Below are positions 1,676 through 18,721 of a stretch of DNA of 45,512 nucleotides, in pieces. Under the pieces are notes generated by a model. That model saw only the letters and a program-made list of their open reading frames with translations, was not told the origin of the DNA and ran no database searches. The translations under genes were made by a program, and so were the position numbers. Numbering within the stretch: position 1 is the first letter of the stretch; every line of letters starts with the position of its first letter. Origin of the DNA: a virus; the IMG/VR virus record IMGVR_UViG_3300030090_005281, positions 1 through 45,512 of that record; one strand, given 5' to 3'.

Positions 1676-2281
1676 TTAGACTTTCTTCGCTGGTGCTGCA
1701 CCTTGGGTGGGTGCGATTGCATCATTGAACATATCAAGAACTCGACTCAATCCTTCAGGTGGGCCATCATCACGGGCCACTACCTTAACGTCATACTTGG
1801 CGCTGTTGTCGCTACTGCGGGTGTTTTCGCTGTGGTTGGCTACAGAACCATGCACAGTCACTTCGCAAGAGAAAAGACCAGCGTTGTACTTGGCCTTAGC
1901 TGTAAGGTCAGCCTTGCTATCTGAAGTCTGTTTGCTCGATGTCGATGACTTCACTTCCATCGTAAATCGCACTTCAGCTTCCTTGACTGACAAGCTGGGC
2001 GTATTGATGATGGCTAGCAGTGGAACCTGAAGATCCACTTTTTCCATCGTTGTGTTTCCGGCAGCGTCCTGTACGGGCTTGTTGAACGAAAAGTCCACAG
2101 TCCGTGCAGCCATGTTGCCCTTACCATCGTCATTCAGACCAACATCTTTGATAAAGTCACTGGATGCCTTTGCAAGCAGGGTTTGTGCATTACACGCTGC
2201 TTTGAGCGGACCACCAATGAGTTGTTCCATTGGTAGACCACCAAACTGGTCTGACATTTTTACGAGGCCGGAATCTGCCAT
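1676..2281 (-). CDS. DUF2589-like protein A
   Basis: This 201-residue protein has the features I associate with Pfam family DUF2589: QFGGLPMEQLIGGPL near the N-terminus, AARTVDFSFNKPV, VPLLAIINTPSLSV, EVRFTMEVKSS, and a C-terminal DGPPEGLSRVLDMF followed by a short tail ending in AAPAKKV. It has no membrane span or signal peptide. GGAGAG lies 5 bases before the ATG. It is the last gene of the leftward exonuclease/RecT operon, directly after a second protein of similar layout (2291-2785). The biochemical function of the family is unknown to me. Finding it in a phage is unusual. Confidence 0.72.
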   Translation of the reverse strand: MADSGLVKMSDQFGGLPMEQLIGGPLKAACNAQTLLAKASSDFIKDVGLNDDGKGNMAARTVDFSFNKPVQDAAGNTTMEKVDLQVPLLAIINTPSLSVKEAEVRFTMEVKSSTSSKQTSDSKADLTAKAKYNAGLFSCEVTVHGSVANHSENTRSSDNSAKYDVKVVARDDGPPEGLSRVLDMFNDAIAPTQGAAPAKKV

Positions 2282-2290
2282 GATGCTCTC

Positions 2291-2785
2291 CTATGGAAGC
2301 AGTTTGATTAGTTGATCGTCGATTCTTGCATAACCCTCTGGAGGCTCACTGCCCTTGAAGATCAACTTGAGTTTAGCAGCATTGCTCTCTTTTTTAAACC
2401 ACGAAGGATTGTTGGCACATGGCCTCACCATCAACTGACCTTTTTTCCGATCTGCATTCAGTCCTGATATCTCCACAGACATTTCAACTTCGAGCGTATC
2501 CACCCGTAAGCTCTGGCCAGTCGTAAGCGATTGCAGCGGGACTGGTATGCTTTTTCGTACCAGAACTCCATCTTCCCACATTGGTATTTCCATGATGACC
2601 ATGCGTGGTACATATATGTGTCTTCCGTCGTCATCGGTTTGCGGCTCACCGTTATCGTCTACCTTCTGCTGCCAGAACTCTTGATTCATGATCGAATCAA
2701 GCTCATGGCGCTCTGCGATGTCGGTGGCCGCTATAACCGCTGATTGTATAGAATGAACAATGTCATCTAAAGAATGATCAGGCAT
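2291..2785 (-). CDS. DUF2589-like partner protein B
   Basis: This 164-residue protein starts with a short amphipathic region (SLDDIVHSIQSAVIAATDIAE). It continues with a beta-rich segment containing YVPRMVIMEIPM, IPVPLQSLTTGQSLRVDTLEVEM and a GLNADRKKG loop. The order short helix, PVPLxSL, then SLRVDxLEVEM parallels VPLLAIINTPSLSVKEAEVRF in the downstream gene, so the two look like distant members of one fold encoded in tandem. Such pairs also occur in bacterial chromosomes. AAGGGTAG precedes the ATG. The pairing suggests a hetero-oligomer; its role is unknown. Confidence 0.6.
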   Translation of the reverse strand: MPDHSLDDIVHSIQSAVIAATDIAERHELDSIMNQEFWQQKVDDNGEPQTDDDGRHIYVPRMVIMEIPMWEDGVLVRKSIPVPLQSLTTGQSLRVDTLEVEMSVEISGLNADRKKGQLMVRPCANNPSWFKKESNAAKLKLIFKGSEPPEGYARIDDQLIKLLP

Positions 2786-3478: not shown

Positions 3479-4357
3479 CTACGAGGTGAAATCTTCTTCG
3501 GGTTCAGGTAGATCGTTTGCCTTCGCCTTTTCAACCAAATCTTTAACCTTAGATCTCCGTTTTGACTTTGGTTTTGATTCAGCTGGTTCAACATCAATAA
3601 CATTTTCATTGATGTCAGCGTTAACGTCTTCATTAACATCGATTGTTTCAATATCGATGACGTTTCCAAAATCAGACTGAATATCGTGCTCCAGAACAGC
3701 AGTCGTCTTTGGAGTAAGTGGTAGGTACTTACAGATTCGACGGATCACTGTCTTTCGCCACATTTCTTCTGTGTGTTGTGCCCACGGTCCAGATTCTGGA
3801 CTACGTGAGCTCTTGCGAATCTTGTTGATTTGATCCTTTCGCATCACTTCTACTTGGCGTTGACCGTCTTTGAAAAAACATACAGCATACGCAAGAAGCA
3901 AGTCACCAGGGTTTTCATGGCACTTTTTGTGTCGAAGAACCTCACCCCTCTCAAGATCGAACGAGTGTTCGAAATCATCGTTTTCGTAGACAACCTCTGC
4001 TTTGAAGTGAGCAACTTCACCTGATCGCTTTACAAGGTCCATCAGTCCTGTGTACTCAATCCACAGCTCTGCGTTGTAGCCTTTGCTTTTCTTGTCCCAC
4101 ATGGGAACCAAAGAAGCTCGGTGCAAAACTCCACCAGCAACCAGGTCCAACTCGCATGCCTTAGCAAGTGCCATATAAACTGACGCTGGGCTGCACTGTA
4201 CGAGTCTTTCGTTCTTCACGGCCTCAAACATTGCAACACGAATAATTCGATCAACGTCGGTGCCCTGTGGTGCAATCTTAATCAGGCTGCTTTTCTTACC
4301 CTCAAGATAATCGTTCAGTTGGGTAACTTTGTCTCTGGTGCTAAGTGCTGTTGTCAT
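3479..4357 (-). CDS. recT: RecT-family single-strand annealing protein
   Basis: RecT-type recombinases bind ssDNA left by a partner exonuclease and anneal it to complementary strands. The 292-residue product carries the family core: SPASVYMALAKACELDL (about 55-72), ELWIEYTGLMDLVKRSGEV, a KKCHENPGDLLLAYAVC segment, and SPESGPWAQHTEEMWRKTVIRR with the conserved WxxH/EMxxKTxxRR stretch. An acidic/basic tail follows, as in many RecT proteins. The ATG has AGAGG upstream and overlaps the 3' end of the exonuclease gene by 17 bases, the classic exonuclease/annealase pair. Confidence 0.93.
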   Translation of the reverse strand: MTTALSTRDKVTQLNDYLEGKKSSLIKIAPQGTDVDRIIRVAMFEAVKNERLVQCSPASVYMALAKACELDLVAGGVLHRASLVPMWDKKSKGYNAELWIEYTGLMDLVKRSGEVAHFKAEVVYENDDFEHSFDLERGEVLRHKKCHENPGDLLLAYAVCFFKDGQRQVEVMRKDQINKIRKSSRSPESGPWAQHTEEMWRKTVIRRICKYLPLTPKTTAVLEHDIQSDFGNVIDIETIDVNEDVNADINENVIDVEPAESKPKSKRRSKVKDLVEKAKANDLPEPEEDFTS

Positions 4358-5315
4358 GTCGTTCCTCTTTGATTCTTAGTAGTCTGGACCCGGCTTGTTC
4401 AGTAACGTATTTCTCATACATTTCTGGCTCATCTTGACGAAACTTGTTTTTATCAAACACTCGTCTGTTTCTTGATGGTTTCCAAGTTGCAATACCTTCG
4501 ATTCCAGGTTCGTCACCGATTGCAGCTCTAAGTCTATTTTCAAGTTCCTGCTTTTTTCGTTCTATTTCTTTGAACTGTTTTCTGACCTCAACGATTTTTT
4601 CGTACAAGTCTTTTTCAGCAACTGTTGCTGGTCGCAGTGGCTTATCTTGAATTCTTTTGTGTAGTTTGCCCAGCACATTCTTACAAAGAGCAGTCCCATC
4701 AACATCGGGTGGTATTTGCTTTTCGACGTGCTTATCCCACCATTGTTCTGCTACATCCAATATCTGAGCGCCCAACTCTTTGTCTCTTTCGATTCTGTAA
4801 ACACGGAAATCATCCAGGCCAAATAGAGTCGCGATGTCCCAGTATGGAGCATCAAAAATCTCCATGTAGGTTCTCATTTGAATTTCTACATCTAGAGGAA
4901 TGTCAGTTGTTCCTGAATCACCCCAGCCTCTTCGAAATCTACGGGTCTTTGCATCCATACCAAACCGGACACCGTTTTGTTCAACAAGGCGATCAGGTGT
5001 GCCAAAGATGCGTGGCCGAGATGGATGCCATGTCAATCCCTCTTCCCAAAGCTTGCACCCTTCCCCCAGGTGGAGCCCATAAAATTCACATACATATTTT
5101 TCCATTACTCGACCACGCATCAAAACTGCATCGTCAACATCGTCTGATTCAAAAAGATCTGTTTTTTCCGTCCAAAGTTTAAAAACACTGTTTTCAAATG
5201 AACCTACTTTTTCGGCCTCATCATTACATGCAGAAAGCAAAATGCATGCTACGTCGGTGCCTCCGAGTCCTTTTTTGCGCTCGTTAAGCCAAGCTTCTCG
5301 CTCTTGTTGGTTCAT
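4341..5315 (-). CDS. YqaJ-like viral recombinase/exonuclease
   Basis: This is an alkaline 5'-3' exonuclease of the lambda Exo/YqaJ superfamily that supplies ssDNA to RecT. The ATG at 5315 follows AGAGGA and gives 324 residues; an upstream in-frame start would run through the promoter and was not used. Motifs: GGTD at 18-21, RGRVMEK with Glu72, GTPDRL with Asp108, MDAKT with Asp121 and Lys123, and EIQMRTYM with Gln146. These are the PD-(D/E)XK metal-binding and structural residues. It is first in the leftward operon, just downstream of a TTGACA promoter at 5334-5362. Confidence 0.93.
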   Translation of the reverse strand: MNQQEREAWLNERKKGLGGTDVACILLSACNDEAEKVGSFENSVFKLWTEKTDLFESDDVDDAVLMRGRVMEKYVCEFYGLHLGEGCKLWEEGLTWHPSRPRIFGTPDRLVEQNGVRFGMDAKTRRFRRGWGDSGTTDIPLDVEIQMRTYMEIFDAPYWDIATLFGLDDFRVYRIERDKELGAQILDVAEQWWDKHVEKQIPPDVDGTALCKNVLGKLHKRIQDKPLRPATVAEKDLYEKIVEVRKQFKEIERKKQELENRLRAAIGDEPGIEGIATWKPSRNRRVFDKNKFRQDEPEMYEKYVTEQAGSRLLRIKEERHDNST

Positions 5316-5408: not shown

Positions 5409-5428
5409 ATCAACCAAAGGTGTGTCTA

Positions 5429-10401: not shown

Positions 10402-10821
10402 ATGAAAAAGTTTTTGAGCTCTTATAGGGACATCTTGGTCTACCACGACTACGGACCCTTGCTGCTGTTTTGGAACATCGCTGACCTTGCCAACAATCGT
10501 GTGCTTTGGATGAGCTATGGAGAGGCTTTGGACAACGGAATGGAGTGGGCCTACTTCCAGTACTGCCTGTACTTTGTTGTGGCCCTGGGCATGCTGTTCA
10601 GCTTACCCAACGTTCGGTCTTGTTCCAGGTTTGTCGGCGTCTACTTGCTGTTGTACATCTTCTCTACAACCCGGTTTATCGTGAAGGTTTTTGACGATCC
10701 AGACTTCGCCGCTGGAGAAGTTGGGCGCAGCCTTGTGGTTACGGGCGTTTACTTTACCTTGTGGGTTTGGATATACGTTAAAATGCGTATGGAAGTAATG
10801 CATAAGGATCTCCGTGGATAA
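10402..10821 (+). CDS. Multi-span membrane protein
   Basis: This 139-residue protein has about four hydrophobic stretches: YGPLLLFWNIADL (17-29), FQYCLYFVVALGMLFSL (51-68), FVGVYLLLYIFSTTRFIV (77-94) and SLVVTGVYFTLWVWIYV (109-126), with charged ends. It is followed with an 8-base overlap by a membrane-anchored coiled-coil gene. A small polytopic membrane protein beside a holin-like protein could be an antiholin/holin partner or a superinfection-exclusion factor; the sequence does not decide this. Confidence 0.6.
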   Translation: MKKFLSSYRDILVYHDYGPLLLFWNIADLANNRVLWMSYGEALDNGMEWAYFQYCLYFVVALGMLFSLPNVRSCSRFVGVYLLLYIFSTTRFIVKVFDDPDFAAGEVGRSLVVTGVYFTLWVWIYVKMRMEVMHKDLRG

Positions 10822-11119
10822 GCCGACCACTACTGCTGCAATCGTCGCCGCCGTAACAGGTGTGTTCAGTGCGGGCGCGTTTAAGTTCTATGAGTTTATG
10901 CTCAAGCAAAAACGAGAAAAACAAGTCGAGGAAAAGGCTGAGCAAACGCTGTACCGTGATGATCTGATCAAACGTGTAGAGAAGTTGGAGATCGAACGGG
11001 ACGAGCATCTGCAGCAAATCATCGACTTGATGACTGACATTGCTGGATTGAAAGTAGAAGTTGACTACGTCAAGCGCGAGAACGAAATCCTTAAGATCAA
11101 GATAGATGCGTTGAGATAG
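10814..11119 (+). CDS. Membrane-anchored coiled-coil protein (second holin-like gene)
   Basis: It starts with GTG at 10814, overlapping the previous gene, with AAGGA about 6 bases upstream. The 101-residue product has one N-terminal hydrophobic segment (AAIVAAVTGVFSAGAFKFYEF, about 8-28), then a long heptad-like charged helix to the end. The topology matches the protein at 254-562, though the sequences are not clearly alike. Either a second lysis component or a membrane tether. The gene ends 21 bases before a convergent leftward gene. Confidence 0.55.
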   Translation: MDKPTTTAAIVAAVTGVFSAGAFKFYEFMLKQKREKQVEEKAEQTLYRDDLIKRVEKLEIERDEHLQQIIDLMTDIAGLKVEVDYVKRENEILKIKIDALR

Positions 11120-11864: not shown

Positions 11865-11938
11865 CTGGGGCGGTTGGACTCGAACCAACAACATCCGGGG
11901 TAACAACCCGGTGCGCCTGCCTGTGGCACCTCACCCCA
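11865..11938 (-). tRNA. tRNA-Asn (GTT)
   Basis: The minus strand folds into a complete cloverleaf of 74 bases. The acceptor TGGGGTG pairs with CGCCCCA (one G-U), the D stem GTGC with GCGC, the anticodon stem CCGGG with CCCGG around loop TTGTTAC (anticodon GTT), a 5-base variable loop follows, and the T arm GTTGG-TTCGAGT-CCAAC closes it. Base 73 is G and U1-A72 closes the acceptor, as in bacterial tRNA-Asn. CCA is not encoded. Position 8 is A rather than the usual U and the D-loop is atypical. It lies between ssb and the FmdB-like gene and is probably cut from their transcript. Confidence 0.82.
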
Positions 11939-11946
11939 TTTGGTTT

Positions 11947-12342
11947 CTAAAAAGGAATCTCTTCGTCCATTCTGTTTTCGTTAGTGGGTTGCTTAGGTTG
12001 CTGTTCACCAGCTCCGTTCATTGGCCTTGAAACAAACTCAACACGATCAGCAAGGATCTCGGTGACCCATCGTTTGTTGCCTTCCTTATCTTCAAATGAA
12101 CGGTTCTGAATGCGACCTTCTACAATGACCTTCGAGCCTTTGTCCAGGTACTGTTCGCAATGTTCAGCACTTTTTCCAAACACAACAATGCGGTGCCAGT
12201 CGGTTGCATCGACCCACTCGTCACCTTTTTTTACTCGTTGATTGGTAGCAACACTAAAGTTGGCAATGGGCAGTCCACTCTTGGCTTTTCTTGCTTCTGG
12301 TTTTTGACCAAGGTGGCCACTAATAAATACGCGATTCATCAT
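11947..12342 (-). CDS. ssb: Single-stranded DNA-binding protein
   Basis: This 131-residue SSB has the standard OB-fold text: MNRVFISGHLGQKPEARKAKSG, IANFSVATNQ, WHRIVVFGKSAEHCEQYLDKGSKVIVEGRIQ, and WVTEILADRVEFV. A disordered Gln/Pro/Asn linker leads to the acidic tip MDEEIPF that recruits host or phage replication partners. The ATG overlaps the stop of the upstream methyltransferase gene (ATGA), with GGAGC just upstream. Confidence 0.95.
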   Translation of the reverse strand: MMNRVFISGHLGQKPEARKAKSGLPIANFSVATNQRVKKGDEWVDATDWHRIVVFGKSAEHCEQYLDKGSKVIVEGRIQNRSFEDKEGNKRWVTEILADRVEFVSRPMNGAGEQQPKQPTNENRMDEEIPF

Positions 12343-12917
12343 CGCTCCTCTGTTGATTGAAAAAGATCAAGGGCTTCCGACTTGAAGTCATTGTCTCTTT
12401 TTTGTTGAAACATCGTTTGTTGATTGCAATACCTTTTCCATGCATGATTTCCTCCGTTCGAGCCTGGAAACAAATCACAGAACTCATCGTTGGATTCAGC
12501 ATTTAAAACAGTGAACAACCATAACCAAAAGTCTAACGGCTTTGCACCAGTCAATCCTTTCTGCAAGGTGATGTTGCAAGATACAAAGTCTGGTATCGTT
12601 TCCATTGTCCTGGTTCGTTTTCTGCCCCCACGCACGATCACAGGCTCCCATGCATATGCAGGGTTCACGTTTGGCTTGAAGCTGCAAAATGGTTTGACCC
12701 AAGCCATGACACGAACATCGTCAGGACAAAATGGTAACAGAGTGTGGAGGGTGGTCGAGCTCAGCGAGTACGCCCAGCCATCAGGAAACTCATCCACCAA
12801 TCTTTCAATCAACCGCTTGTGCTCTTTTGGGTTGTCCCATACTAAAGCGTCGGAATGATTTTTTGCGTAGAGCTTGCCGCACCCTAAATACGGTGGATCT
12901 GCGTAGGCAAACTTCAT
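12339..12917 (-). CDS. Orphan DNA adenine methyltransferase (DPPY type)
   Basis: This 192-residue protein begins MKFAYADPPYLGCGKLY, with the DPPY catalytic motif at residues 7-10. It ends with a SAM-binding-like DLFPGSNGG motif, so the motif order is DPPY first, FxG last. VRVMAWVKPF and WEPVIVRGGRKR are typical of phage MT-A70-like and D12-like enzymes. There is no restriction partner nearby, so it probably protects phage DNA or regulates it. Both ends overlap neighbouring genes by ATGA. Confidence 0.8.
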   Translation of the reverse strand: MKFAYADPPYLGCGKLYAKNHSDALVWDNPKEHKRLIERLVDEFPDGWAYSLSSTTLHTLLPFCPDDVRVMAWVKPFCSFKPNVNPAYAWEPVIVRGGRKRTRTMETIPDFVSCNITLQKGLTGAKPLDFWLWLFTVLNAESNDEFCDLFPGSNGGNHAWKRYCNQQTMFQQKRDNDFKSEALDLFQSTEER

Positions 12918-17059: not shown

Positions 17060-17581
17060 TCAACGATTGTCCGGTACTTCGTTTCCCCAACTAATCCAGC
17101 CCTCTCGGTTTGACCTTGCGAACATCTCAAGGTGCGGTCCATGGCTACGGGCCTCAATCAAATCATAGAACTCGCTGGGCTTCTGGCTGTGCCTACCCCT
17201 TGGCGCGTTAATCCATGACCCAATCGTCTTGTCATCAGTTTTGACGTTGTATCCTTTGCCTCTGACACCAAACAGTAAGATCTCATGCTGACCACGGAAG
17301 TATTGACCAAGACCTTTACGACCCTCTTTTGTCCATACCACGTTTGTTTTATACTTAAAGCCAAGTGTACCAATGAGCCATATGGCGTCTGCCAAGAAAC
17401 TATTGGTTGCCCAAACATACAAGTGACAGTCATTAGCAGGCTTCCACTCAGGTGACTGCATGATCACCCTTGGCATGTCAGGTGTCTTAACCAACGGGTA
17501 GTGCCGGTCAGCTCCACGTTTAATCTTGCCACCACCAGCCTCGTTCCACGGTGGGTCCATGAGAATAGTTCGATACATCAT
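17060..17581 (-). CDS. MT-A70-family adenine methyltransferase (DPPW type)
   Basis: This 173-residue protein starts MMYRTILMDPPWNEAGGG with the DPPW catalytic motif at 9-12. It continues with LYVWATNSFLADAIWLIGTLGFKYKTNVVWTKEGRKGLGQYFRGQHE and KPSEFYDLIEARSHGPHLEMFARSNREGWISWG, the ordered core of the MT-A70 family. It methylates adenine N6 in DNA (phage members) and probably shields the phage from restriction. It has no cognate nuclease beside it. Coupled upstream to a small gene by an ATGATG/TGA overlap. Confidence 0.9.
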   Translation of the reverse strand: MMYRTILMDPPWNEAGGGKIKRGADRHYPLVKTPDMPRVIMQSPEWKPANDCHLYVWATNSFLADAIWLIGTLGFKYKTNVVWTKEGRKGLGQYFRGQHEILLFGVRGKGYNVKTDDKTIGSWINAPRGRHSQKPSEFYDLIEARSHGPHLEMFARSNREGWISWGNEVPDNR

Positions 17582-17787: not shown

Positions 17788-18110
17788 CACTCACCTCCTT
17801 TGTTCTGAGCATCCACGATGCTCTTGGTGTAGTCCCTCTTCATCTCTTTCAATGCCTCTGCGGCAGCGATCCCGGCTTGCACAAAGAAGTCCTCGGCATC
17901 CTCAACCGGGTCAGGATTGAACCGTTCCTTCGTACACTTCATGCAGTTGCACAAGGGACCAGGCTTCTGGCTCTGCTCGGCCCAGTCCGGTACAACTTGG
18001 TACACCTTCTCACCACCCTCGATGCGGGTCAGCTGTTCTGGTGTGACCACGACCTCTACCGGTTCTGCCAGTGTGTATGTCTCGCCATCGTCCAATACAA
18101 ATATCATCAT
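17787..18110 (-). CDS. Small unknown protein with CxCxxC motif
   Basis: ATG 18110 overlaps the cytosine methyltransferase-like stop; the product has 107 residues. A beta-rich front (MIFVLDDGETYTLAEPVEVVVTPEQLTRI) is followed by PLCNCMKCTKERFNPDP, a possible metal site, and a helical C-terminus. It ends in NKGGE, encoded by the junction that starts the next gene. No family recognised. Confidence 0.55.
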   Translation of the reverse strand: MMIFVLDDGETYTLAEPVEVVVTPEQLTRIEGGEKVYQVVPDWAEQSQKPGPLCNCMKCTKERFNPDPVEDAEDFFVQAGIAAAEALKEMKRDYTKSIVDAQNKGGE

Positions 18111-18721
18111 TGTTCTCTTCCCCATTGTTGGGCCATTGCAGCAGCGATCCCTCTGAACGTGCGGCTACGGTCTTTGTTAGTCATTACTTTGGTGTAGGTG
18201 GCCTTCTCTCCACGTCGGGCACCACCCGTGTTGCTTGGCAGGTAAACACCGTACTCATCCAACACATCGGTGGGCTGGAGCTCTGGTAAACCCTTGAGCC
18301 ATAGCAGTGTGCGCTTGCTGTACGGGTGACCGTACTCATAGGGCTGCACCACCTGTGAATGCTTTGGCAGATCGAATGCTCTCAATGGCGTTGGATTCTC
18401 CACAGCAATCCTCGGTATGGGTGCGTTCAACATCTCCATGAAGAATGCTTTGGCCTCCAGACCCTTGGCGTATCGGTCTTTGTCGATGACACCAGGACTT
18501 GTGTACAACCACCGAGCACTGGCTTTCGATAGATATGTGCAAGGCGGATGCGCAATCAGCAAGTCCCAACCATCCCCAAGGATGTCCCGCACATCACCTT
18601 TGTAGTGCTGGCCCGGTATCTCGGTACTCCTGATGTCACAGGACACCGCGTCGTGACCCAACACACTGAAGGCTTCACGAACGATACCACTGTACTCACA
18701 TGCGACAAGGACTTTCATCAT
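18107..18721 (-). CDS. C5-cytosine methyltransferase-like protein
   Basis: This 204-residue protein has a SAM-binding front (MKVLVACEYSGIVREAFSVLGHDAVSCDI, then GDVRDILGDGWDLLIAHPPCTYLS) with the PPC catalytic loop of C5 methyltransferases at about 59-61. ENPTPLRAF then fits motif VI (ENP), and RGEKATYTKVM lies before the end. It is shorter than bacterial Dcm enzymes and lacks a target-recognition domain of usual size; short forms like this are common in phages, often annotated as cytosine methylases. Substrate not established. Confidence 0.75.
   Translation of the reverse strand: MMKVLVACEYSGIVREAFSVLGHDAVSCDIRSTEIPGQHYKGDVRDILGDGWDLLIAHPPCTYLSKASARWLYTSPGVIDKDRYAKGLEAKAFFMEMLNAPIPRIAVENPTPLRAFDLPKHSQVVQPYEYGHPYSKRTLLWLKGLPELQPTDVLDEYGVYLPSNTGGARRGEKATYTKVMTNKDRSRTFRGIAAAMAQQWGREQ

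Follow-up and report, generated by a model that had tools for sequence, protein, structure and literature searches.

Gene content of the window and its leftward operon

The window analysed here is the whole 45,512-nt stretch of IMG/VR record IMGVR_UViG_3300030090_005281. Matches to a terminase (phrog_2, E = 2.7e-31) and to a major head protein (phrog_9953, E = 4.6e-25) among its genes identify it as the DNA of a tailed phage. Against cultured phages the terminase gave only remote matches (at most 27% identity among the matches listed) and a 740-aa protein of the record gave none; thus the phage has no close named relative among cultured phages. The record also carries a tRNA-Asn gene (11865-11938, minus strand) and three ORFs that resemble DNA methyltransferases by eye (12339-12917, 17060-17581 and 18107-18721, minus strand).

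An operon on the minus strand comprises, in reading order, exo, recT, C221, B and A. The first gene encodes a RecE/YqaJ-like recombination exonuclease (4341-5315; phrog_434, E = 6e-62; YqaJ, E = 1.5e-7), whose start was assigned by eye to an internal ATG, the longest ORF starting at 5417. It is followed by genes for a RecT-like ssDNA annealing protein (3479-4357; Pfam RecT, E = 1.7e-37; phrog_148, E = 3.6e-58), for the 221-aa protein C221 (2803-3468), which has no Pfam or PHROG match above background, and for two proteins of 164 aa (B, 2291-2785) and 201 aa (A, 1676-2281) separated by 9 bp. With the exonuclease start so assigned, every junction between a stop and the next start is an overlap or a gap of no more than 17 bases. 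Beyond A lies an intrinsic-terminator-like site on the same strand (1448-1479), with a 13-pair stem followed by TTTTT; it is the strongest of 12 such sites found in the region, where 8.6 (sd 3.2) are expected by chance, and probably marks the end of the operon.

A and B are divergent members of one family

We found that both A (152.2 bits, E = 1.9e-44, profile positions 1-153 of 154) and B (51.6 bits, E = 1.7e-13, positions 2-153 of 154) exceed the curated Pfam cut-off of 23 bits for PF11655 (DUF2589) across the full profile, the members here being phage-borne. No other part of the record matched DUF2589, and none of 14 control genomes did. The preliminary description, which had placed two adjacent DUF2589-like genes here, was therefore correct as to family; it had them follow the exonuclease and RecT, and both of these do lie upstream on the same strand, with C221 intervening between RecT and B. 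Almost nothing has been written about DUF2589 in the literature searched, which lay outside subscription papers and preprints: PF11655 is absent by name, and a single paper among 5.39 million names DUF2589, in a passing mention of the Archaeoglobus fulgidus genes AF0414-AF0417, induced on lactate.

Profiles built from 57 A and 45 B sequences are homologous (hhalign probability 97.8, E = 1e-12, 161 columns), as the description of a related pair had implied. The predicted order of elements is also alike in the two proteins: a long N-terminal helix, strands, a short helix, further strands and a C-terminal helix. We infer from this agreement that A and B share a three-dimensional fold, and the counter-result named in the preliminary description, a pair without a common predicted fold, did not arise; but the homology of the sequences is firmer than the fold itself, which is provisional because A was modelled with low confidence (mean pLDDT 59.2, with residues 106-159 below 50, against 74.6 for B). 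With models this weak, Foldseek against the PDB returned nothing at E = 0.001 or better for either protein, and the best VIA-align score was Z = 2.7. In BFVD, the model of B had a single match, A0A516L4Y6 (E = 1.2e-7, TM = 0.52), which is itself unnamed. A sequence search of the PDB with A, and searches with profiles of A, B and the bacterial protein X described below, yielded no relative. Failure to match a solved fold gives no evidence that the fold is new.

Two further candidates were rejected. SUMO appeared as a relative of B in two weak PDB matches (E = 0.18 and 0.34), which we do not believe. Alternation of hydrophobic and polar residues in the strand regions of A exceeds that of shuffled sequences (for example 1.62 versus 0.65 at residues 98-114) and had raised the possibility of a pore-former; this was dropped, because any amphipathic sheet shows such alternation.

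The pair is conserved in viruses while the recombination genes beside it are not

In scans of IMG/VR, 175 relatives were found for A and 103 for B, and the best 80 of each, retained for analysis, gave 69 distinct viral pairs. A wider scan with a profile built from bacterial and phage sequences returned the same best 80 loci. The viral loci, like the bacterial ones considered below, are the best-scoring part of what was found and are hence biased toward the type seen in the window. The phages bearing the pair are uncultured and probably marine. In a collection of 50,697 phage records, one had a relative of A (an unannotated fragment, 32% identity) and none had a relative of B.

The preliminary description had suggested surveying how often the pair lies next to recT, and had regarded the neighbouring recombination genes as a possible hint of function. 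For 48 distinct pairs the contig extends at least 4.5 kb upstream of B; within that distance a RecT homologue is present in 31 and absent in 17. Over 68 viral pairs, median identity to the window is 90% for A and 87% for B, versus 31% for RecT and 31% for Exo (37 pairs each), and 35% for C221 in the 38 pairs that carry it; because resemblance to A or B was the basis on which loci were selected, the identity values of A and B themselves are biased, the contrast between the two flanks less so. The Exo and RecT proteins next to the pair fall as low as 25-31% identity, a divergence that A and B do not show. Thus, although exo-RecT phage operons (phrog_434, phrog_148) supply the upstream genes of the operon here, DUF2589 is not tied to them, and the hint of function drawn from adjacency is not supported. 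The pair might be an accessory of the exo-RecT pathway, given the shared operon with its short gaps and the frequency of RecT upstream. We consider this very improbable in view of the 17 pairs that lack RecT, the divergence of adjoining recombinases that A and B do not follow, and the bacterial loci, where recombination genes do not recur.

Both proteins are under strong purifying selection and hence constrained (dN/dS = 0.042 in A, 0.062 in B; synonymous sites nearly saturated). The phage sequences form one clade in the tree of A (support 100/98) and one in that of B (SH-aLRT 100, quick tree), which fits a single old acquisition of A and B as a pair. Such a clade, nested among bacterial sequences and compatible with a single capture, would also fit a passenger, or moron, that plays no fixed part in the phage cycle. 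Against this stand the low dN/dS at near-saturated synonymous sites and the retention of the pair as its neighbours change, which make a passenger most improbable. The alternative first proposed, that the pair is cargo, is not supported, given the strong purifying selection and the single phage clade in each tree: A and B are a conserved core unit.

In 14 of the 69 viral pairs B and A are more than 200 bp apart, the space being mostly occupied by a low-complexity gene that varies between loci; 12 pairs have such a gene on the same strand close behind A. On this evidence A and B could belong to the virion or another particle and assemble there with the variable, disordered proteins encoded alongside. 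Tight assembly would fit the high conservation of A across phyla, where 34 columns are invariant among 57 sequences. In many of these phages, however, the pair sits among early recombination genes, and the top 25 families near the bacterial genes include none for capsid, portal, terminase or tail. A virion role is therefore decidedly unlikely in our estimation, ranking next after the conflict system considered below.

Three observations concern genes around the pair. Unrelated-looking variable genes between B and A (L005, L018, L025, L035 and L111) share a C-terminal end resembling LMENMRxK. In some close relatives of the window a gene has been inserted before B (L086, 7363-8001) that matches phrog_3704, named ferredoxin (E = 6.5e-40). 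A 101-aa protein of the window (10814-11119, plus strand; viral cluster 16), which combines a single hydrophobic stretch with a coiled coil, has homologues encoded divergently immediately before B in many viral loci, but its gene is 8 kb away in this one.

A convergent lysis-type cassette lies beyond A

On the far side of A, the plus strand carries a convergent cassette consisting of the end of a lysin gene, a small membrane protein gene and two further genes. The lysin gene is cut by the contig end, so that its C-terminal part remains (3-254); its family matches the endolysins of phrog_33083 (E = 1.1e-16), and the remaining part is 58% identical to the lysin of another phage locus (L057) and 52% identical to the lysin at a flavobacterial DUF2589 locus (L174). 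The small membrane protein (254-562) has one hydrophobic stretch and a coiled coil by eye, and a weak PHROG match to Rz-spanin (E = 0.0029). The two remaining genes are a lysis-side neighbour (585-1088) with no family match above cut-off, found in 37 of 68 viral pairs at a median identity of 83%, and the last gene of the operon (1085-1465), which has no family match and is related by eye to viral cluster 21.

Among the 47 viral pairs in which A is followed by 3.5 kb or more of sequence, homologues of the small membrane protein gene lie convergent to A in 32, and either this holin-like gene or a lysin does so in 34; the other 13 have neither family near A and structural genes there instead. Median identity of the small membrane gene is 84% (43 pairs), so that the lysis side of the pair is conserved at 84% versus 31% for RecT on the other.

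In bacteria the pair travels with a third protein

A scan of one genome per species identified 211 relatives, of which the best 80 were kept; with three plasmid loci these make a set of 83, spanning Bacillota, Pseudomonadota, Bacteroidota, Actinomycetota, Thermodesulfobacteriota and Myxococcota. Counting B as present when a match above 60 bits lies on the strand of A and within 5 kb of it, we found B in 78 of the 83 loci (before A in 64, after it in 14), which bears out the preliminary description of the family as known mainly from bacterial tandem pairs. All nine host genomes searched whole had DUF2589 as A plus B, one of them with two pairs and another with three consecutive domains. A and B are thus two divergent DUF2589 members that travel as a pair, both in the phage clade and in bacteria.

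A third protein, which we call X, is present near A in 76 of the 83 loci and directly after it in 63. It is a conserved protein of about 90 residues with a YHVGFxRKP motif (loci L143-L226; for example L156, 10897-11181) and has no match in Pfam, NCBIfam or the PDB. X is missing from the phages studied here, and the viral scan found a relative in a single contig. In the four loci inspected, none of A, B and X has a clear transmembrane stretch.

The distribution of DUF2589 is patchy, with 9 of 398 genomes positive in the sample of one phylum and 19 of 296 in that of another. Two variant arrangements were seen. At two Amycolatopsis loci (L198 and L202) three DUF2589 domains occur in a row instead of two. 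A second class, mostly from a Bacteroidota sample (L278, L283, L287, L289-L295 and L299), has one DUF2589 gene followed by recurring proteins of about 230 and 190 residues.

Peptidoglycan hydrolases and effector-like genes neighbour the module

A peptidoglycan hydrolase lies within 5 kb of A in 45 of the 83 loci, in every case on the strand of A, and three further matches lie beyond 5 kb; in the other 38 loci none was recognised by the six profiles used, which were seeded from near genes and so favour near matches. Six unrelated families are involved: GH108, GH19, CHAP, Amidase_2, a PG_binding_1 enzyme and a phage-type lysin. Since these enzymes share no ancestry and differ from lineage to lineage, selection seems to act on the activity itself.

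As an independent control we tallied Pfam families among 146 near and 146 far genes. For the near set, 193 operonic flank genes were reduced to 179 by removing genes of the three plasmid loci and any product shorter than 60 or longer than 1000 aa, and 146 of these are non-redundant. For the far set, 150 genes were sampled from 303 non-redundant ones and all but the last four were used. The near genes include PG_binding_3 (10), GH108 (8), GH19 (8), PG_binding_1 (6), Amidase_2 (5) and CHAP (2), whereas among the far genes the same families fall outside the top 25; as the tallies cover the top 25 families, single members may be hidden. No family for nucleic-acid handling or recombination appears among the recurring bacterial neighbours (top 25 near families), and the hint of nucleic-acid handling drawn from the phage operon is accordingly not borne out. 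None of the 46 near hydrolases has a signal-like N-terminal hydrophobic stretch.

A test set was drawn by family search, irrespective of similarity to the phage proteins. The search matched 28 genomes. Setting aside two that the first set already contained and four with only short weak matches left 22 loci, and one of these (L280) is on the same contig as L220 and was left uncounted. At least five of the resulting 21 loci have a hydrolase nearby (92 of 158 neighbour genes scanned): GH19 in two, CHAP in one, a phage-type lysin on the opposite strand in one, and a phage lysozyme, placed by reading of L284, in one. A sixth has an amidase by eye.

We give particular weight to the phage-type lysin. 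The lysin family of the phages also stands beside A at all three flavobacterial loci of the first set (L174, L182 and L205; E = 1e-62 to 1e-71). This endolysin family (phrog_33083/phrog_3000) thus includes the lysins beside both the phage and the flavobacterial pairs; it is, however, common in phages without DUF2589 as well, such as crAss-like phages. A small membrane gene is present in the operon at 19 of the 45 hydrolase loci, but such genes are no more frequent near the module than far from it (33 of 146 near genes versus 45 of 150 far genes), and no holin or spanin was recognised in the bacterial loci.

Other neighbours resemble effectors. Patatin, Exo_endo_phos, a TcdA/TcdB-type glycosyltransferase domain and WHH/colicin-DNase each occur at single loci, Peptidase_C58 accounts for 3 of the 146 near genes, and a Tle1-like phospholipase, a subtilase and Endonuclease_NS were found in the test set. 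With so variable a set of effector-like genes (from patatin to the Tle1-like phospholipase and subtilase) and so patchy a distribution, bacterial A, B and X could form the core of an abortive-infection conflict system with exchangeable effectors, and the phage pair, which lacks X and lies among early genes, would then be a decoy or inhibitor. This is the main rival to the role proposed below; we nevertheless judge it unlikely, as none of ten module and neighbour proteins matched in PADLOC, the neighbour tally is dominated by peptidoglycan hydrolases, and the strong purifying selection on A and B gives no sign of an arms race.

A possible role in envelope breaching or release

The best-supported lead, which we advance tentatively and at somewhat less than even confidence, is that the pair works in cell-wall lysis, envelope breaching or release. 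Cell-wall enzymes without an export signal need help in reaching the wall, and phages use holins for this. A and B may bind each other or co-assemble in the cytoplasm, and would take part in a process whereby the envelope is opened from inside by an endolysin-type peptidoglycan hydrolase of the cytoplasm and something is let out. In bacteria, the hydrolase, and often also an effector encoded next to it, would be handled or gated by the B-A-X module, much as in a lysis cassette or Type 10 secretion system; here the fit to a release role comes from gene association. In the phage, A and B would be expressed alongside the early genes, and the convergent lysis cassette would supply the cell-wall enzyme and the membrane proteins; A and B may tune or assist lysis or release, perhaps by acting on the lysin and on the timing of lysis. 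Their place beside recT would then be an accident of gene order.

The constancy of B and X beside A in bacteria, the signal-less hydrolases of six families close to A, the lysin family shared by the phage and flavobacterial loci, the lysis genes convergent to A in 34 of 47 viral pairs and the much higher conservation of the lysis-side neighbours than of RecT argue for such a role. Several observations weigh against it: 38 of the 83 bacterial loci have no recognised hydrolase, small membrane genes show no enrichment that would point to a holin partner, 13 of 47 viral pairs have neither lysis family nearby, no fold match was found, the phage lysin belongs to a separate operon that converges on that of the pair, as early and late phage regions commonly do, and X, present in nearly all bacterial loci, is missing from these phages.

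The muramidase TtsA of the typhoid bacterium belongs to GH108, one of the hydrolase families found at the bacterial DUF2589 loci, and this is one likeness to Type 10 secretion. These systems have put phage lysis modules to a new use, the release of folded proteins (PMC10847048, PMC13284979; see also PMC6996933). The bacterial loci resemble them in encoding an endolysin-type hydrolase with the module (45 of 83 loci), without a signal in any near hydrolase, together with effector-like proteins; they differ in that the conserved core is DUF2589 A, B and X, that no holin or spanin was recognised, and that their part in release is putative. A broader proposal, which we regard as unlikely, is that A, B and X constitute an undescribed release system across several bacterial phyla, one that carries or admits effectors and cytoplasmic cell-wall hydrolases to the envelope and needs no classical holin, and that a clade of uncultured phages adopted its A-B core for their own lysis or release.

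These results move DUF2589 from a bare name to a testable hypothesis, that of a three-protein core accompanying unrelated hydrolases and effector-like genes in several phyla. If this core governs envelope breaching, it would represent a new way to release proteins or phage, and the two well-conserved phage proteins would be simple tools for its study.
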